This document shows, in pieces, positions 656 to 20,029 of a stretch of 20,029 nucleotides of DNA. The stretch's first letter is position 1; each line of letters begins with the position of its first letter. The notes below the pieces were generated by a model, which saw only the letters and a program-made list of their open reading frames with translations, ran no database searches and was not told the origin of the DNA. The translations under genes and the position numbers were made by a program. Origin of the DNA: a virus; IMG/VR virus record IMGVR_UViG_3300050136_000008, positions 1 to 20,029 of that record; one strand, written 5' to 3'.

Positions 656-760
656 TGCTTATCCGGTTGACACCCACAACCTCTTTATCTTGGGTCATGC
701 GGCCCTCCGGCTTTCGTCTCCACGACGCTGAGCACTCAGCGCGAGAATGTTCCGTGCGGC
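656..760 (-). ncRNA. Predicted omega-RNA (reRNA) 3' domain of the tnpB element
   Basis: TnpB nucleases use an RNA that covers the 3' end of tnpB, runs to the element's right end and takes its guide from the flank. Here that stretch folds into ordered hairpins on the minus strand. They are a 7-bp stem CGCTGAG/CTCAGCG (726-741), a GGG-N8-CCC stem (692-705) whose loop contains the tnpB stop codon, and GGTTG/CAACC (665-681) next to the end. The first two recur in the tnpB-less element at 4314-4577, with a T-A to A-T swap in the first stem. The guide would be read from positions 655 down to about 635, just inside the glycosyltransferase start. The 5' end is unknown and expression is inferred. Confidence 0.6.
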
Positions 761-1750
761 ATTTGTGTCACGGTCATGAACCGCTCCACATTCGCCACAT
801 GTCCACTCCCTTATTCCAAGCTGTGCGATACCTTTAGGGCCACAACGCGCACCGCACGTTGAACACAGTTGGGAAGTCCATCGTTCATCGGCCTCAATGT
901 ACGTCGCCCCGTGCCTGCTGGCCTTGTAGCGGAGCGCCGACCGGAACGAAGCCCAAGAGGCATCGAGCACGGATTTAGCCATCCGCGTTCGGGCCATCTG
1001 CGCCGCGTTCACATTGCCGACGACGATCAGGCGATTGTCCGCAGCGATGCGGGCCGTCGCCTTATGGATGTGATCCTTTCGGGCATTGGCGATCTTGGCG
1101 TGAATTGCCTTGACGCGCTTGCGATTACCGGCGCGCTGCGCCGCGGCAAGTGCCCGTTCATATTTGCGGTAGTGGCGGAGCGCGGGAACCGATGTGCCGT
1201 CGCTGCACGCCGCAAGAGTTTTCAACCCCAAATCAATGCCGATTTCGCCAGTGCCCATAGGCAAGTCGGGAACCTCGACATGGAAGCACACGTACCAGCG
1301 TCCACGCGCATCCTCAACGAACGCACCGCCCTTCGCGGTAGGCGGCAGGGGGCGTCGCGCTTGCCAGAAATGGTAAACCTTGCCGAGATATGTGATCGTA
1401 TTCGCCGATACCTGACGGCTCTGACCCTGAAACGGTATCCAGCCCAAAGCGCGCGATCCGCGCCAGCGCAATGAGCGCTTTGCCTTGTCGCGACTCCGCG
1501 CATACTGCTCGCACACAGAGCCGACCGTCTGCGCATGAATGCCCAAGTCCTTCGACGTGCCTTTGGTCACCCGTTGTAGGTCGAAATGCGACGGCCATTT
1601 GCGCTTCGGCGACCCATCGCGGTAGCGCGCCTCGATGTCGTGCTGTACCTCGTTGCAGTAATTCCAGACGACGTTGCACGCTTTCGCATGCCGCCGAAGG
1701 GTCTTTTTGGCGGAGCGGTCCTTGATGCGATAGTGGTAAGTCAAGATCAT
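695..1750 (-). CDS. tnpB: TnpB RNA-guided nuclease, 351 aa
   Basis: TnpB is the RNA-guided RuvC-like nuclease of IS200/IS605- and IS607-type elements and the ancestor of Cas12. The length is typical of compact TnpBs. RuvC-I is IGIDLGLKTL with D173. The zinc ribbon uses C296/C299 and C318/C321 (TSQLCSTCG ... WTCGECG). RuvC-III is HDRDTNAARNIL at 325-336. The canonical RuvC-II glutamate is absent: the site reads LIVVGNVNAAQM (241-252), while glutamates lie about 40-44 residues later in YIEADERW (E286, E289). This matches a known TnpB lineage with a relocated acidic residue, so it is not by itself evidence of inactivity. The N-terminus MILTYHYRIKDRS is a normal start, but the Shine-Dalgarno is weak. 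The frame is intact. Confidence 0.93.
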   Translation of the reverse strand: MILTYHYRIKDRSAKKTLRRHAKACNVVWNYCNEVQHDIEARYRDGSPKRKWPSHFDLQRVTKGTSKDLGIHAQTVGSVCEQYARSRDKAKRSLRWRGSRALGWIPFQGQSRQVSANTITYLGKVYHFWQARRPLPPTAKGGAFVEDARGRWYVCFHVEVPDLPMGTGEIGIDLGLKTLAACSDGTSVPALRHYRKYERALAAAQRAGNRKRVKAIHAKIANARKDHIHKATARIAADNRLIVVGNVNAAQMARTRMAKSVLDASWASFRSALRYKASRHGATYIEADERWTSQLCSTCGARCGPKGIAQLGIREWTCGECGAVHDRDTNAARNILALSAQRRGDESRRAA

Positions 1751-1856
1751 CTAGGTTTAGTACCTGTGGGTATCAACCGGATAAGCATGCTTCGAAGCAT
1801 ACACGCGGCCGCGCCCAGGTCCAGCGCGAAGTGCTGTGGTGGTTAACGCGATGGTC

Positions 1857-3577: not shown

Positions 3578-3855
3578 TAGCGGTATCGCTTTCGTTTTGA
3601 TTTTGCGAGCGCCGAAGGCGCTCGCGATTCTTTTGCGGGTTTTTTGGTTTCGAGTCGCGCCGCCTTGGCCGGCGACGGGATAACGGCGCGGCCGGACTTC
3701 GTGATGATCGTATCACCCTTGATGCTGTGACCCGCGCCGTAGGGCGCAGCGAGCAGCGGGCTCTTGCCGACGATCCTGCGGGCCTGGGTCCCGGCGCGAT
3801 ATCCGCGAGCGCGCGCTTCACAGTAGGCGCCGAGCAGTTCATAGATACTGGTCAT
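3577..3855 (-). CDS. Small basic hypothetical protein, 92 aa
   Basis: The start MTSIYELLGAYCEARARGYR overlaps the upstream stop as ATGA. The middle contains GKSPLLAAPYGAGHSIKGD and the C-terminus is strongly basic (KKPAKESRAPSALAKSKRKRYR), suggesting nucleic-acid or structural binding. No known domain is recognised. It is part of the tightly coupled block 4273-2645. Confidence 0.6.
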   Translation of the reverse strand: MTSIYELLGAYCEARARGYRAGTQARRIVGKSPLLAAPYGAGHSIKGDTIITKSGRAVIPSPAKAARLETKKPAKESRAPSALAKSKRKRYR

Positions 3856-4211
3856 CGAATCTTTGCTCCACCTGGGATGACGTGACCTGGGCCGCAATCC
3901 TCATCGATCGTTGCCTTGCGCAGCGGGATGGCGGACGGCTGTCGCGCCGGACCACGTCCAGACTTGAGGGCGAGGGCGGCAGCGTGCGCTTCGAGTTCGC
4001 GCCGGAGTGGAGTCATCTCGTGGTTAACGCCAGCCGGCGCTGACGGCGCGGCCGCTACAGGGGGTTTTGGCGGAGGAGCCGGGGATCGCGGCAGGCGCGC
4101 GAGCTTCTCTTTCATCCGGCTGGCCTGCTCGACGACGCGATCCGGCGACTTCGAGACGTTGGCGATCACGGTGGATCGCATCGGCTGCCCGTACTTCACC
4201 GCGTCCGTCAT
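3852..4211 (-). CDS. Hypothetical protein, 119 aa, proline/alanine-rich linker
   Basis: The start MTDAVKYGQPMRSTVIANV is chosen for the upstream GAGGAAATGC ribosome binding site and its overlap with the preceding stop. A helical segment (SPDRVVEQASRMKEKLARL) is followed by a low-complexity P/A linker near residues 44-65, then another helix (TPLRRELEAHAAALAL). It ends CGPGHVIPGGAKIR. This looks like a small structural or adaptor protein; the function is unknown. Confidence 0.6.
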   Translation of the reverse strand: MTDAVKYGQPMRSTVIANVSKSPDRVVEQASRMKEKLARLPRSPAPPPKPPVAAAPSAPAGVNHEMTPLRRELEAHAAALALKSGRGPARQPSAIPLRKATIDEDCGPGHVIPGGAKIR

Positions 4212-4273
4212 GCATTTCCTCGGATCAGGACGGAGATGATGAAGAGCAGGATAAGAAAACCGAAGATGCTCAT
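4208..4273 (-). CDS. Possible 21-aa single-span membrane peptide
   Basis: ATG to TGA encodes MSIFGFLILLFIISVLIRGNA, essentially one hydrophobic helix with a positive C-terminal end. The stop overlaps the next start as ATGA, like other genes in this block. The upstream ribosome site is weak. Tiny hydrophobic peptides of this type can act in lysis or membrane stress, but nothing here proves it is translated. Confidence 0.35.
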   Translation of the reverse strand: MSIFGFLILLFIISVLIRGNA

Positions 4274-4313
4274 ATCTCATCGACACTCTCTAATCTCGTA
4301 GCCGTTCGTCGCG

Positions 4314-4401
4314 TGCTTATCCGGTTGACACCCAACAGGGTATCACGACCCGGCATTCCTCTACAGGACGCAGAGCACTCTGCGCGATCCGCCGAAGCGG
4401 A
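4314..4401 (-). ncRNA. omega-RNA-like hairpin array in the tnpB-less element
   Basis: On the minus strand this region carries TCCGC-TTCG-GCGGA (4388-4401), then CGCAGAG/CTCTGCG (4369-4384), then GGG-N8-CCC (4338-4351), then GTTG/CAAC (4324-4336). The last three match stems in the tnpB element in order and spacing. The second differs from its partner by a compensating A-T for T-A swap. This supports selection for RNA structure in the absence of a protein. Expression is not shown. Confidence 0.5.
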
Positions 4402-4577
4402 CCTTATTCATCGCCGTTCTACCTCTCGGATTACCTTTCGGCGCGAACGGACAACGGAAACTTGGTCTTTAGCTGCCCCCAATCCATCGGAGGCGATTGT
4501 CGGAACGGAGAAAAGCAAAATTTCAGGCGGTTGTCAAGCGTTGAGCGTACCCGTGGTGGGCGTCAACCGGATAAGCA
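4314..4577 (-). mobile_element. tnpB-less 264-bp derivative of the IS (MITE/PATE-like)
   Basis: It has the same outer ends as the tnpB element: TGCTTATCCGGTTGACACCC at 4314 and GGGCGTCAACCGGATAAGCA at 4577. About 90 bp next to the first end resemble the 3' part of the full element, including its hairpins. The interior (about 4402-4550) lacks tnpB and has no protein-like frame. Such short derivatives are mobilised in trans. It sits between the frameshifted NPW protein and the 21-aa peptide. Confidence 0.8.
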
Positions 4578-6792: not shown

Positions 6793-8439
6793 TTAGCTCG
6801 CGGCGGACGCGCCCTTCTTGCCGACCTTGCGCTTCAGCGGGACCGGCGACTTACGAGTGTGCGGCTTGATCGGGACGTTGCTGTTCAGTGGGATCGTCGG
6901 CGCAGGGTCAGCCGGCGGGATATTTCCCGGATTATCTGGGTCAGGCGGATCGACCGGAGGGACATCGTCGAAGCTCTCATCGGTGTCGTCAGGAGGACTC
7001 CCGTGAACCATCGCGCCGATCAACGTCTCAGCTTCCTGTTCGATCTGCTCGTTCTCCGCGTCGAAGTCCATCTCCGTCATGTCGTTCAACTGCATCATGC
7101 GGTGCATGGACTTGAGCGACAGCGGCAAGCCGAGTTGCTTGGCCTGCATGAAGGCCAGGAGTGCAGCGCCCGCGACGTTCTGGTCCGCGAAGTCGGTCTG
7201 CGGAGTAACGCTGACATCGTCCGGGTTCTCGCCGACCCATGTCGCGCACATCTTGAGCGCCTGTTCGAGCCCGGCTCCGGCGGCTTGCGCAATGGCCGAG
7301 ATCGTTGTCGTGCGCGCGGCGACACGGATACGGAGCGCCTCACCCGACTCGCCGCGTGCGTTGCCCACATCCATGAAGGCGACGCCGGCAGCGGCAGCAT
7401 TGTCCTGGTCATTCTTGAGGGACTGCCGCATCTCGCCGAGGCCCGACGCGGATGCGCCGATGTATTTGGCATCGCCACCGATGCGGACGGAGATCAAGCC
7501 CTTGGCGCCGACGCGCAACTCCGAGTCCTCATCGCCGGCAGGCCCGATGATGACGAGCGTGTTCTGTCCCTGCATGAAGAGCGTTTGGCGGTAGTCCGCC
7601 TCAGCCCGGTAGATTGCGAGGCAGAGGTTGCTCAGGCCAAGAAGTGGGGGGACTTCCGGCTCGGGGACAAGGTCGGTTGCACCAATAAACACGAACGGAA
7701 TCTCTTGCAGGTAGCGACCGGCGATCTGCGGGTTGATGAAGTCGGCCGGGATCGGCATCGACATATCGTTGACTTTCACGCACACCGCGAAGTTGTCGGC
7801 CTCGGCCGGTCGCGTCCAGCCGCTCTCAAGCGCTTCAGGAATGCCGCGCGCCAAGATGCGATGCTTGCGCTCATTGACCCAGGTGAAGCCCTCCCGCTGG
7901 AAACCGCTCTCGTCGAGCACGACAAGCTCAAGCTGATTGCGTCCCTCGTCGCGGCGTCCGGCATCCCAGTTGATGATGCGCTCAGGTTCGTAAAATGAAA
8001 GGTAAGGAATCGCCTTGGCTGGATCGACTCCAGTCGGCGCGTCCACGAGCAGTCCGCAGCGACCGTAGACGAACTGCGCCTCATTGATGCGACGCAGGAG
8101 CATCTGCAAGCCCTCGCCCTGGATCGTCGCCCTGTCCATCATTGGCGCGAGCCGAGGCGTCAACTTGATGACGGCGGGCTTCATATGTACGATCCCGACC
8201 ATTGCCTTGACTGCGTCGCGCAGATGATCGTGGAAGTAGGCGCGGGTCAGATACGCCTCGTAATCCTTCCAGCCCGGCGAAGTCGGCGTGGTCATACCAT
8301 CCTGCATCATGCTTTCGGTGGGCGGAAGGTAATCGAGGCGCTTTTTCTTGACTGCTCGCTCACCCGCGTAGGTGTCGCGAAGTTGGAGCCACTCGCCGAG
8401 GCGCTCGACGTAGAGCGGATGTCTGTCATCGACGGCCAT
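6793..8439 (-). CDS. Portal protein, DUF4055-like, 548 aa
   Basis: The portal forms the dodecameric DNA channel at one capsid vertex and docks the terminase. The start MAVDDRHPLYVERLGEWLQL follows GGAGAAGTGAC directly after the HNH stop. Family-like blocks include WKDYEAYLTRAYFHDHLRDAVKAMVGIVHMKP near residues 60-90, VYGRCGLLVDAPTG, PYLSFYEPERIINWD, and GLSNLCLAIYRAEADYRQTLF near the middle. The C-terminus is a D/P-rich tail (VPPVDPPDPDNPGNIPP) ending in a basic stretch (KRKVGKKGASAAS). Position after the terminase fits the role. Called from memory of the DUF4055 pattern. Confidence 0.85.
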   Translation of the reverse strand: MAVDDRHPLYVERLGEWLQLRDTYAGERAVKKKRLDYLPPTESMMQDGMTTPTSPGWKDYEAYLTRAYFHDHLRDAVKAMVGIVHMKPAVIKLTPRLAPMMDRATIQGEGLQMLLRRINEAQFVYGRCGLLVDAPTGVDPAKAIPYLSFYEPERIINWDAGRRDEGRNQLELVVLDESGFQREGFTWVNERKHRILARGIPEALESGWTRPAEADNFAVCVKVNDMSMPIPADFINPQIAGRYLQEIPFVFIGATDLVPEPEVPPLLGLSNLCLAIYRAEADYRQTLFMQGQNTLVIIGPAGDEDSELRVGAKGLISVRIGGDAKYIGASASGLGEMRQSLKNDQDNAAAAGVAFMDVGNARGESGEALRIRVAARTTTISAIAQAAGAGLEQALKMCATWVGENPDDVSVTPQTDFADQNVAGAALLAFMQAKQLGLPLSLKSMHRMMQLNDMTEMDFDAENEQIEQEAETLIGAMVHGSPPDDTDESFDDVPPVDPPDPDNPGNIPPADPAPTIPLNSNVPIKPHTRKSPVPLKRKVGKKGASAAS

Positions 8440-8440
8440 G

Positions 8441-8938
8441 TCACTTCTCCATCCATTCGGCAATCGCGCGGTGATCCGCAGCGGTGCCGTCGCTCTTCAA
8501 CATATTGGCGCGCAAACTAATAACGAGCACATTTCCTGGAACATAACCTTTAGAGTTATCACGTCGATCAAGAGAGGCGAGCGCCCATTTATCGCGTGAG
8601 CGAAGATTTTTCCCACGTAAACCACCGTATTGAAGTTCAATATTTAGCACCGGGCAACGCGTCGGAAGAGGCATCAAATCAGCCTCCGTAATATTGAATA
8701 CCAAGTCTCGTTGTTTGGCGCGAGCTTTTGCAGTTTGAAGTAACCGCTTCACAGGATTCGCATACCGCCAAGTCCGACGTGCCTCGCGATGCGCTTCCGT
8801 ATTTCGCGAGTGATAATCTCTCATCGTAATGAGGTGACGACCCGGATGCCGCTCACGATAGCGGACTGCTATCTCTGCATCGGTGAACCGACCGCGCAGT
8901 CGCTCAACTCTCGGAGTTGTCCACTCTTGCAGCGCCAA
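8441..8938 (-). CDS. Free-standing HNH-type endonuclease, 165 aa
   Basis: The C-terminal half carries CPVLNIELQYGG, then ASLDRRDNSKGYVPGNVLVI and SLRANMLKSDGT. This is the phage HNH-like family pattern (CPVLG...SLDRID...GYVPGNV.VIS.RAN..K). The N-terminal ~70 residues are basic (EIAVRYRERHPGRH, VKRLLQTAKARAKQRD) and probably bind DNA. Start is TTG with AGGGAG eight bases upstream. It is inserted between the terminase large subunit and portal, a common place for homing endonucleases in phage packaging modules. Catalytic residues were not confirmed. Confidence 0.75.
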   Translation of the reverse strand: MALQEWTTPRVERLRGRFTDAEIAVRYRERHPGRHLITMRDYHSRNTEAHREARRTWRYANPVKRLLQTAKARAKQRDLVFNITEADLMPLPTRCPVLNIELQYGGLRGKNLRSRDKWALASLDRRDNSKGYVPGNVLVISLRANMLKSDGTAADHRAIAEWMEK

Positions 8939-8998
8939 AGCACGTACTCCCTATCCCTGCGGGCGGTCATTAACCATACTTCCGCCCAAATAGCAACC

Positions 8999-11539
8999 CT
9001 AACGAAGCTTGTCGCCGATGCGACCACTTCGGGCTCCGCCACCCTCCCAGCGCAACCTATATCTAGTTTCGTCGCCGGCATGGTCCTCAGCCTCGGTATT
9101 ACTTGACAGTATACCGTTGGCGTAGAACAGATGCGCGTCAGCAATGGTGAGGTTATAGACTAGCTTTTTCTCTGCGGAGCGCCCAACCGCAACTATATGA
9201 ACAGGTGCGGACTTCCTTGTAGCTATGCGATTTAGCCAAGAACTTGCTCCCGCAAACCGGACACCGCTTCTTAATGCAGCCGACAGCCCCGGCGGCGTAA
9301 GAGCACTGATCCGAGCAATAGAGTTTCGTAGGATGTCGAGTTTCAAAAGAACGCCCACAATAACCGCACGCAAGTTTGCGTCGTGGTGCGCCCGCGAGCA
9401 TCTTTTGGCTGTTGGCCCGGAGAACGTGCTGACCTCTGGGGCTTCTACTCCAGGCCCGCCATGCGGCGACCATGGTGGGTCGCCGGCGCTCAAGATGGTA
9501 TCTCGCGTGCTCTCCGGGTGGTAGGCACTTAAAGTTTTGGAGTACGTTGCGGTCGTGATTGTCATCCTTGTGGTGGACATGCCAACCAGCAGGGATTTTT
9601 CGTCCCGCATCGAGCCATATTTTTCGATGAAGGCTTGTGCCGCCCGCCGCCAAGATAGTACCGTTTGGAATGTAGTAAAGCCGTCCTGGATACCGGCGAT
9701 AAGTGACACCACGATAGATAATGCGCTTGACGCGAGCCATGTGATCCTCTCCTGAGGCGTCATGTAGCACGCTACCTCTGACAGCGCAATGAGGCCGCGT
9801 CCATGTATTTGAATCGGGTGGTGCGGTGTGCCCTCTAATATCCGGCCGTCAGAAAACTTGACAAGCTGTGTTTCGCTCGGCCCTGAGACATAGGATTTCA
9901 GAACTTCGCGAGGGCCAAGTGGGGTATCGACATAACTTCCCGCTTCAACTTCCTCGATCGGGCGCGCCCCATCCGGCGTATCAATCAGTGTGCCGGCCAC
10001 CCAGCAGTCAACGTCATCAATCTTCTTTTCATCGCGCGGCAGCACTGGAACTGTCGCAGCCCACTGCGGACATCGCGACTCGACAATGAAGAGGCCCGGT
10101 GTCTCGCGGTACATGTTCGGCGGCCGCTTGGTGGCCTTGAGCCGCTGGCGTGCCTTCTCCCAGCCTTGCTCGCGGGAGCCGGGACCTTTAACCGCCTTCT
10201 CCCAGATGAGGCCGCGATACTTGATCCCATTTATGATGACCGGCTTCTCGAAGTCCTCGGCTACACACGCGCCGTTCACTTCGTCGAAGATCGCACTATC
10301 GGCTGGGCCGCTCTTGGCCCGGCTCTTGCCGCTCTGGACATCTCGCCAACCGCGCTCGATCTCATATGAGATGATCTTCTTGGTGATGTCGGGAACGGGC
10401 AGCCGCAGACCCTCGTTGCGCTGACCAGTCCATCCGTAGACCTCGCCGATGCGGAACAGGTCGTGCGGCAGCGTCGCCCTGACCGAACCATCCTCAAACA
10501 CGAGGTCAGTTCCATCACTCTCGGCGTAGTAGCCGACCGAGAATGGCTTGGATGAGCCGTGGTCGTATGCGCGCGTGATGCGCCAACCCGGCGGCGGATC
10601 GAAGTCCTTGACGTAGATAGCGTCGCGGCAGTCGGCGAAGATGTCGTCGAACATGCCGCCTGCGGTGATATCCCACGACCCGAAGACCCACGCTCTACGT
10701 TCGGACTCGTTGCGTGCGGCCAAGCTGATGTTCGCGATGTAGTCAGGGTCCGACTTCTTCAGCAGCAAGTTCTCAGCAAGGTCGCAATGGATCACGCGGC
10801 GATCCGGGTCCTTGAGCTTCGTCTTTGGGTTTTCCTTGCCCTCGATCAGCGGCCCGAGAATGGTGCCGTCCCACTTCCCGTCTGGACCGATGCGCGGCCA
10901 GTTGCGGAGATTGTACCGCGACATGACCCAGTTGTGGCCGACGCCGTAGGGGTTAGTCGTTGCCAGCACGCGACGCGGCATGCCCGGCATCGTGGAGCGC
11001 AGGCACGAGAACATCTGGTTGTAGAAGTCCGGCGTCGCCCAACGAGTCAACTCTTCCCAGCATATCCAGGCATAGCTATGGCCAATATACGCGTCGAAGT
11101 CCGACGCCGTTTCGAAGTGCGAGAAGTATAGCCGCTCGCCCTCGGGAAACTCCCAAAAGTATTTGATCTCGTTGTAGAACGCAGTGGGGTGGATTCGCTT
11201 GATCCATTTCTTGCTACGCTCGATCACGTCACGCAGCATCGGATGCGTCTGCCGGAACAGAACGCCGCGCCACTCAGCGCCGAACCCTCGACCGACGTTC
11301 TGGACGAAGTCCATAAGCGCGACATCAGTCTTGCCGCTGCCCCGGTTTCCCTCCAGGAGAACTTCGATAGTATCGCAAGCGAGAAAGATCGTCTGCGATC
11401 CGGGCATCGGCGCCCAAGCCACTTCCTGCTCGTCGCCATCCATGTTAATGACAACTGGGTAGTATTCGCCATTGCGTAGCCGAAACTTGGCAACAGAAGG
11501 CGATGGTGTCTTACCGGGTCGGGTCATTTTCGACCTCAT
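8999..11539 (-). CDS. terL: Terminase large subunit interrupted by an intein
   Basis: TerL is the ATPase motor and nuclease that packages DNA. Walker A is GNRGSGKT (64-71), Walker B is YAWICWEE (156-163) and the coupling motif is TTNP (194-197). The RNase H-like nuclease has AYDHG (D326) and PADSAIFDE. The last nuclease motif is split: DDVD (508-511) is followed by a 303-aa intein, then TEAEDHAGDETRYRLRW. Splicing would join DDVD to TEAEDH, giving a 543-aa protein of normal TerL size. The first ATG is used because GAGGAA precedes it; MTRPGK four codons later is an alternative. The start overlaps the small-subunit stop. Confidence 0.93.
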   Translation of the reverse strand: MRSKMTRPGKTPSPSVAKFRLRNGEYYPVVINMDGDEQEVAWAPMPGSQTIFLACDTIEVLLEGNRGSGKTDVALMDFVQNVGRGFGAEWRGVLFRQTHPMLRDVIERSKKWIKRIHPTAFYNEIKYFWEFPEGERLYFSHFETASDFDAYIGHSYAWICWEELTRWATPDFYNQMFSCLRSTMPGMPRRVLATTNPYGVGHNWVMSRYNLRNWPRIGPDGKWDGTILGPLIEGKENPKTKLKDPDRRVIHCDLAENLLLKKSDPDYIANISLAARNESERRAWVFGSWDITAGGMFDDIFADCRDAIYVKDFDPPPGWRITRAYDHGSSKPFSVGYYAESDGTDLVFEDGSVRATLPHDLFRIGEVYGWTGQRNEGLRLPVPDITKKIISYEIERGWRDVQSGKSRAKSGPADSAIFDEVNGACVAEDFEKPVIINGIKYRGLIWEKAVKGPGSREQGWEKARQRLKATKRPPNMYRETPGLFIVESRCPQWAATVPVLPRDEKKIDDVDCWVAGTLIDTPDGARPIEEVEAGSYVDTPLGPREVLKSYVSGPSETQLVKFSDGRILEGTPHHPIQIHGRGLIALSEVACYMTPQERITWLASSALSIVVSLIAGIQDGFTTFQTVLSWRRAAQAFIEKYGSMRDEKSLLVGMSTTRMTITTATYSKTLSAYHPESTRDTILSAGDPPWSPHGGPGVEAPEVSTFSGPTAKRCSRAHHDANLRAVIVGVLLKLDILRNSIARISALTPPGLSAALRSGVRFAGASSWLNRIATRKSAPVHIVAVGRSAEKKLVYNLTIADAHLFYANGILSSNTEAEDHAGDETRYRLRWEGGGARSGRIGDKLR
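9098..10006 (-). other. Intein in TerL, 303 aa, overlapping an HNH gene in another frame
   Basis: The N-terminal splicing block is CWVAGTLIDTPDGARPIEEV with catalytic Cys1. Block B is GRILEGTPHHPIQIHG (TxxH type). Block F is KLVYNLTIADAHLFYANG and the end is ILSSN followed by Thr as the +1 nucleophile. The penultimate residue is Ser rather than the usual His. The insertion point is inside the nuclease motif DDVD/TEAEDH, a conserved site typical of inteins. Between blocks B and F, where an endonuclease domain would sit, the intein frame is open for about 200 codons but has no recognisable domain. The other frame there encodes an HNH protein. Confidence 0.9.
9153..9740 (-). CDS. HNH endonuclease nested out-of-frame in the intein, 195 aa
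   Basis: The gene has its own ATG with a strong Shine-Dalgarno (AGGAGAGGATCAC) and stops at a TAA that overlaps intein block F. HNH core: LHRKIWLDAGRKIPAGWHVH followed by HKDDNHDRNVLQNFKCLPPG and EHARYH (about residues 37-81). The C-terminal half has cysteine pairs like zinc ribbons (CGYCG, YCSDQC, CPVCG, TCSYSC). It is read in a different frame from the TerL-intein coding frame and the two overlap completely. By family it would nick or cut DNA, probably at intein-free terL alleles. The whole gene fits exactly where an in-frame intein endonuclease domain is usually found. Confidence 0.85.
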   Translation of the reverse strand: MARVKRIIYRGVTYRRYPGRLYYIPNGTILAAGGTSLHRKIWLDAGRKIPAGWHVHHKDDNHDRNVLQNFKCLPPGEHARYHLERRRPTMVAAWRAWSRSPRGQHVLRANSQKMLAGAPRRKLACGYCGRSFETRHPTKLYCSDQCSYAAGAVGCIKKRCPVCGSKFLAKSHSYKEVRTCSYSCGWALRREKASL

Positions 11540-19930: not shown

Positions 19931-20029
19931 TGCTTATCCGGTTGACACCCACAACCTCTTTATCTTGGGTCATGCGGCCCTCCGGCTTTCGTCTCCACGA
20001 CGCTGAGCACTCAGCGCGAGAATGTTCCG
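19931..20029 (-). mobile_element. Right end of a second tnpB element, cut by the window edge
   Basis: From 19929 to the end of the window, 101 bases match 654-754 exactly: the outer end, the end hairpin, the GGG-N8-CCC and CTGAG/CTCAG stems and the last codons of tnpB. Orientation is the same as the full copy. The flanking sequence differs, so it is a different insertion point. Confidence 0.8.

Follow-up and report, generated by a model that had tools for sequence, protein, structure and literature searches.

A tnpB-less IS1595-type element in a phage genome probably encodes an omegaRNA that TnpB uses in trans

The closest described systems are the TnpB-omegaRNA (OMEGA) systems of IS200/IS605 and IS607 elements. 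In the window, by which we mean the whole 20,029-nucleotide stretch analysed here, a virus contig of 20 kb that bears genes of tailed phages, a short element without tnpB and a full element carrying it share with these systems the TnpB clade, the AAAGGTA...GAATAAG core, stems 1 to 3, the GTCAA end, and intact RuvC residues. Unlike those systems, they have IS1595-type inverted repeats and lack an IS605-type left-end hairpin, no adjoining tnpA could be found, and the first 13 bases of the predicted guide are constant; in a related phage, G001, RNA-only copies outnumber tnpB copies. Trans-acting IscB-type omegaRNAs, reportedly described by Altae-Tran et al. in 2021 at loci without an adjacent nuclease, likewise consist of an omegaRNA locus with no neighbouring nuclease, whereas here the protein is TnpB, the genome that of a phage, the locus a mobile IS1595-type element, and the guide apparently fixed. 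The elements resemble IS1595 transposons with passenger genes, and MITEs, in their inverted repeats, 8-bp duplication, and IS1595 transposase of autonomous relatives, but the cargo here would be a guide-RNA gene and the window copy has no duplication. TldR proteins are phage-encoded repressors derived from TnpB (PMC13418256); the present system is also phage-borne, TnpB-derived, and possibly of fixed guide, but its RuvC residues are intact, in contrast to the nuclease-dead TldR. The system is thus of a known kind, TnpB-omegaRNA; as far as checked, what is new is the combination: the carrier is of IS1595 type, RNA-only copies are mobile, and the guide seed would come from the transposon end. 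A search of the literature library consulted, for TnpB together with IS1595, found nothing relevant.

The short element contains no ORF of at least 40 amino acids. On its minus strand, a promoter-like motif is followed in order by hairpin A, ATGAATAAGG, a UUCG hairpin, stems 1, 2, and 3, GTCAA, and the repeat tip. These parts, and those of the full element, are as follows.

4314..4577: tnpB-less element, 264 bp, with inverted repeats on both sides and no target duplication in the flanks
4553..4577, minus strand: LE terminal inverted repeat, RNA 5' end, outer dinucleotide degraded
4509..4537, minus strand: promoter-like TTGACA-N17-TTTTCT, pointing into the RNA (from sequence and alignment)
4412..4443, minus strand: hairpin A, CGCCG...CGGCG, containing the AAAGGTA motif, which also occurs in TnpB-linked RNAs
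4402..4411, minus strand: ATGAATAAGG motif, corresponding to GGAATAAGG/A in TnpB-linked omegaRNAs
4388..4401, minus strand: hairpin B, TCCGC-UUCG-GCGGA, 14 nt, at the position of the Zn-finger codons of the tnpB copy
4369..4384, minus strand: stem 1, CGCAGAG-TG-CTCTGCG, with covariation and a covariance model match
4357..4368, minus strand: stem 2, TCCT-GTAG-AGGA, with covariation and a covariance model match
4326..4345, minus strand: stem 3, TGATACCC-TGTT-GGGTGTCA, adjoining the scaffold end GTCAA (4329-4325)
4312..4334, plus strand: RE terminal inverted repeat, RNA 3' end, CG-TGCTTATCCGGTTGACACCCA
4312..4324, minus strand: constant tip CCGGATAAGCACG of 13 nt, predicted to form guide positions 1-13 (boundary placed from homology with L131 and L180-L194)
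4296..4311, minus strand: flank, guide positions 14 onward if the scaffold boundary is as predicted
656..1787: full element with TnpB, with the same inverted repeats as the short element and no target duplication
695..1750, minus strand: TnpB, 351 aa
667..753, minus strand: 3' half of the full-element omegaRNA, with stem 1 at 741-726 (CGCTGAG-TG-CTCAGCG), and stem 2 at 724-715; constant tip beyond it at 666-654
19931..20029, minus strand: third copy of the full-element right end, interrupted by the contig end

Judged by their ends, the window elements are not of IS200/IS605 type but of IS1595 type, a family of DDE transposons: inverted repeats lie at both ends, and the left-end hairpin is absent from the window element. 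The repeat, TGCTTATCCGGTTGA, was found in at least 118 viral-contig stretches, frequently as inward-facing pairs 0.2-2.6 kb apart, and 76 elements were extracted from such stretches. Most of those of 1.3-2.6 kb code for a transposase, about 340-350 aa long and recognisably similar from one to the next, and frequently hold a passenger gene, e.g., a methyltransferase (by eye), and smaller ones have one small ORF or none. The one transposase tested, from L038, belongs to the IS1595 family (NF033547, E 1e-55), and another autonomous IS1595-type relative with the same repeats, at 8174-10419 of G001, has a transposase and its own duplication. An 8-bp target duplication lies immediately outside CA/TG in 51 of the 65 other elements with good ends and around 5 of the 9 stand-alone copies that have both ends, these five being in G001; at the window short element, the two 8-bp flanks differ by 5 mismatches. 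Compared to those 51/65, none of eight tnpB-bearing repeat elements has the duplication (Fisher p 2e-5; window 656-1787, G001 93229 and 15710, G002 31249, G035 42875, G036 4329, L270, and L271). The tnpB-bearing elements may have taken a different route of movement or rearrangement, and one might speculate that DNA breaks at the repeats are one cause of the missing duplication. Among the IS1595-type elements of phages (L008-L125; e.g., L038 1507-3231, L067 3981-5873, L040 1819-2663), each has one passenger gene, the passengers being methyltransferases and many small unknown ORFs, and a promoter-like TTGACA often lies inside the repeat.

Relatives of the window TnpB, encoded by bacterial plasmids and phages, are 43-48% identical to it, and the RuvC residues D173, E289, and D326/D328 are invariant among seven aligned proteins. 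The omegaRNAs of these relatives have the layout AAAGGTA...GAATAAG...stem 1...stem 2 (loop mostly GNNG)...stem 3...GTCAA, with unique flank directly after, and the short element holds every one of these parts in the same order. We built a covariance model, R1, on 17 TnpB-linked RNAs, leaving short elements out, and searched with filters off. R1 matched the short element at 4325-4390 on the minus strand (35.4 bits, E 1.4e-8), one of three places found in the window, the others being the two TnpB right ends; the next unrelated match had an E of 1.3. Because TnpB ends from the same repeat family are among the training RNAs, this test is not fully independent. In 88 loci with other repeat elements, R1 gave three weak matches (E 0.04-0.14) besides TnpB copies (L010, L030, L046, L086, and L103) and one G001 stand-alone copy (in L010). 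A search of Rfam with the sequence returned no omegaRNA-like match.

In 18 gap-free sequences, including TnpB-linked RNAs, 100% of the cells of stems 1 and 2 are paired (shuffled mean, 64.5%), 7 of the 8 pairs are changed on both sides, and covariation is 0.881, compared to 0.189 in shuffled and 0.04-0.14 in slid versions. Because the two stems are invariant within the short copies, this covariation stems from the comparison with TnpB-linked RNAs. Between the most distant copies, which are 68-69% identical upstream, stems 1 and 2 are identical (30/30; naive p ~1e-5), and among the short copies 8 pairs in hairpin B and neighbouring stems are altered on both sides; the G001 counterpart of hairpin B, for example, is TCCAT-UUCG-GUGGA. 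The RNA strand of the short element folds at -76.5 kcal/mol (z = -4.1), a value equalled by 0/200 shuffles, and the promoter-like motif is retained across nearly all copies in the alignment.

These results bear on what had been read from the two window copies at the outset. The compensatory change from CGCTGAG/CTCAGCG to CGCAGAG/CTCTGCG in stem 1 is exact to the letter (741-726 versus 4384-4369); stem 2 contains a second, CGT/ACG in the tnpB copy versus CCT/AGG in the short element, and the upstream core AAAGGTA...GAATAAGG is likewise common to both. A covariance model and a covariation test had been proposed as a check; in the analyses above, stems 1 and 2 covary and the TnpB-only model finds the short element. 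Three hairpins in a common order had been described; stems 1 and 2 hold, and the third is the stem immediately before GTCAA rather than GGG-N8-CCC. The latter is present in the letters of both copies, but L083, G001 15710, and the bacterial relatives lack it, and we rejected it as a conserved stem; in the full copy it sits within a stretch, GGAGGGCCGCATGACCC, that resembles a ribosome-binding site and start codon. The UUCG-capped stem is present at 4401-4388, although it was not merely added, as it replaces the Zn-finger codons. Selection for RNA structure in the tnpB-less element, as read from sequence comparison, is well supported by the covariation, the TnpB-only model, the 30/30 identity, and the copy in phage G035 described below; that it followed a loss of tnpB, as had been supposed, is one possible origin.

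Stand-alone copies were found in three phages: that of the window, G001 (IMGVR_UViG_3300050119_000104, 117 kb; its portal gene and that of the window share 75.5% DNA identity; G005 is the same phage), and G035 (IMGVR_UViG_3300021077_000161). Besides 13 such copies, G001 carries four TnpB genes of this clade, of which three lie in repeat elements. R1 scored its stand-alone copies at 24-33 bits, and the whole core is retained in 11 of the 13, g115 being truncated and g111 having lost its core. One TnpB gene of this clade, at 46232-47275 of G001 (L170 6232-7275; 59% identity), has a more canonical IS605-like right end, with GTTAA and no repeat tip. In G035, the stand-alone copy is AT-rich and has no left repeat. 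Its core motifs are retained in the usual order with stem 2, and its end reads CTAA-CCGGATAGGCACG; its match to R1 is weak (17.4 bits, E 0.028). Another 28 records of the phage group, found by portal protein, had neither TnpB nor RNA. No match to the short element was found in annotated phages, and a TnpB alignment search of genome contigs returned nothing. In looking for the empty site of the short element, we found no counterpart of the neighbouring gene at 3852-4286 in viral contigs, and none of its relatives has the same flanks. A palindromic IS605-type empty site, TTGAY-CCGGATAAGCA, was also sought in viral contigs and was rejected, its single match (L179) lying inside coding sequence, as expected by chance. 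The 18-mer GTCAACCGGATAAGCACG had three matches across 84,980 species genomes, which is chance level, and no host was found.

The position of the scaffold end determines what the guide would be. The first-pass annotation had taken the guide to be simply the flank. In relatives, the scaffold stops at GTCAA. The repeat elements have CCGGATAAGCACG, which makes up the final 13 bases of the repeat, between GTCAA and the flank; with the scaffold end placed at GTCAA by homology, guide bases 1-13 would be this constant tip. In the 117 kb of G001, CCGGATARGCACG occurs 16 times, and each occurrence is the right end of an element with TnpB or of a tnpB-less one. The G035 version of the 13-mer, with an A-to-G change, occurs three times, once at each of two TnpB right ends and once at the stand-alone RNA, and nowhere else in that contig. 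As the G035 copy retains the tip with the matching change despite its missing left repeat, the guide looks fixed rather than determined by the insertion site. Consistent with this, 8 copies have a left end that is missing or degraded, compared to no copy for the right tip (p 0.008, in a set partly found via the right end); among G001 copies, free of that search bias, the ratio is 5:0 (p 0.06). The TnpB of L128, which has no left repeat, keeps CCGGATAAGCGCG and not GTCAA. Conservation of the tip may be due in part to transposase binding. In ISDra2, about 12 TAM-proximal guide bases decide and suffice for targeting (PMC10097598); if this rule holds here, all copies would have one guide in common. 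Left ends of multicopy bacterial relatives hint at a TAM that may end in CG.

Altogether, we consider it probable from these sequence comparisons that the short element encodes an omegaRNA and that TnpB uses this RNA in trans. The element would be a stand-alone gene carried as a non-autonomous IS1595-type transposon, and its own promoter would drive leftward transcription of an RNA about 200 nt long, which the resident TnpB, with its intact RuvC residues, would bind in trans. With the scaffold ending at GTCAA, guide bases 1-13 would equal CCGGATAAGCACG, and TnpB and the stand-alone copies within one phage would all have a single fixed specificity, TAM plus CCGGATARGCACG. The stand-alone copies would then boost the dose of one guide instead of supplying many, and would spread via an IS1595-family transposase supplied in trans. 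A bolder proposal, which we regard as possible but doubtful, is that phages made TnpB a fixed-guide nuclease whose seed is the IS1595-type terminal repeat, common to the TnpB copies and the dose-raising omegaRNA genes, and which cuts one class of sequence, namely sites that resemble transposon ends and have a TAM, whether in competing elements, in phages, or in the host.

That the element is a dead, MITE-like remnant, amplified passively by an IS1595-type transposase in trans with its RNA parts as functionless leftovers of a TnpB element, appears unlikely. The terminal repeats with 8-bp duplications at five G001 copies and the decayed copies g111 and g115 fit such a remnant, and the close relationship of most G001 copies means that recent amplification accounts for their likeness; yet the most distant copies agree at all 30 positions of stems 1-2, hairpins are compensated, a compacted hairpin B and a promoter-like motif are unlike a plain deletion, and the G035 copy was retained without its left repeat. 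An RNA that is made but acts as decoy or regulator, keeping TnpB occupied with a guide for which there is no target and so shielding the phage from cleavage, would suit the numerous copies with one common guide and the confinement of the 13-mer to element right ends in G001. We regard it as improbable, since the RNA of TnpB itself carries the same tip, leaving no competing guide visible, and the RuvC residues of TnpB are intact. The scaffold could instead run through the repeat tip, with the flank as guide and each copy homing to its own empty site, as the usual flank-derived guides of IS200/IS605 and the varied flanks of the copies might lead one to expect. This is quite improbable in view of the unique flank that follows GTCAA directly in relatives, the lack of a common TAM-like motif before the duplications of g102, g95, g32, g15, and g14, and the tip retained in G035 without a left repeat. 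If the short element is indeed an omegaRNA gene serving TnpB in trans, a TnpB system would have been uncoupled from the IS200/IS605 life cycle with a DDE transposon as its carrier, and guide-RNA genes without a nuclease would be mobile, their seed fixed by the transposon end; such elements would plausibly stand midway between omegaRNAs bound to a transposon and guide-RNA loci that stand alone.

Several minor features were observed in the same sequences. At the right ends of tnpB elements, the stretch resembling a ribosome-binding site and its ATG open an outward ORF (MTQDK..VGVNRIST) across the repeat tip, at 698-654 and 19973 of the window (both minus strand) and at 93271 (minus strand), 16801, and 19627 of G001; at G001 93271 it continues as a 200-aa ORF. 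A 35-bp piece that is 94% identical to window 675-709, the corresponding stretch at the TnpB right end, lies directly after the portal gene in other phage contigs (L170 2875-2909, i.e., G001 42875-42909; L216 1700-1734; L217 3990-4024), where the repeats are absent. Within the window, the ORF at 8999-11539 has a weak Hint (intein-like) match, and ORFs nearby (8441-9770) look homing-endonuclease-like by eye. Finally, a direct repeat of about 50 bp (TGTCCC..GCGTCCTTCATG) occurs at least six times between 12853 and 17179; on the minus strand it reads MKDA.GHGS, close to ORF starts.
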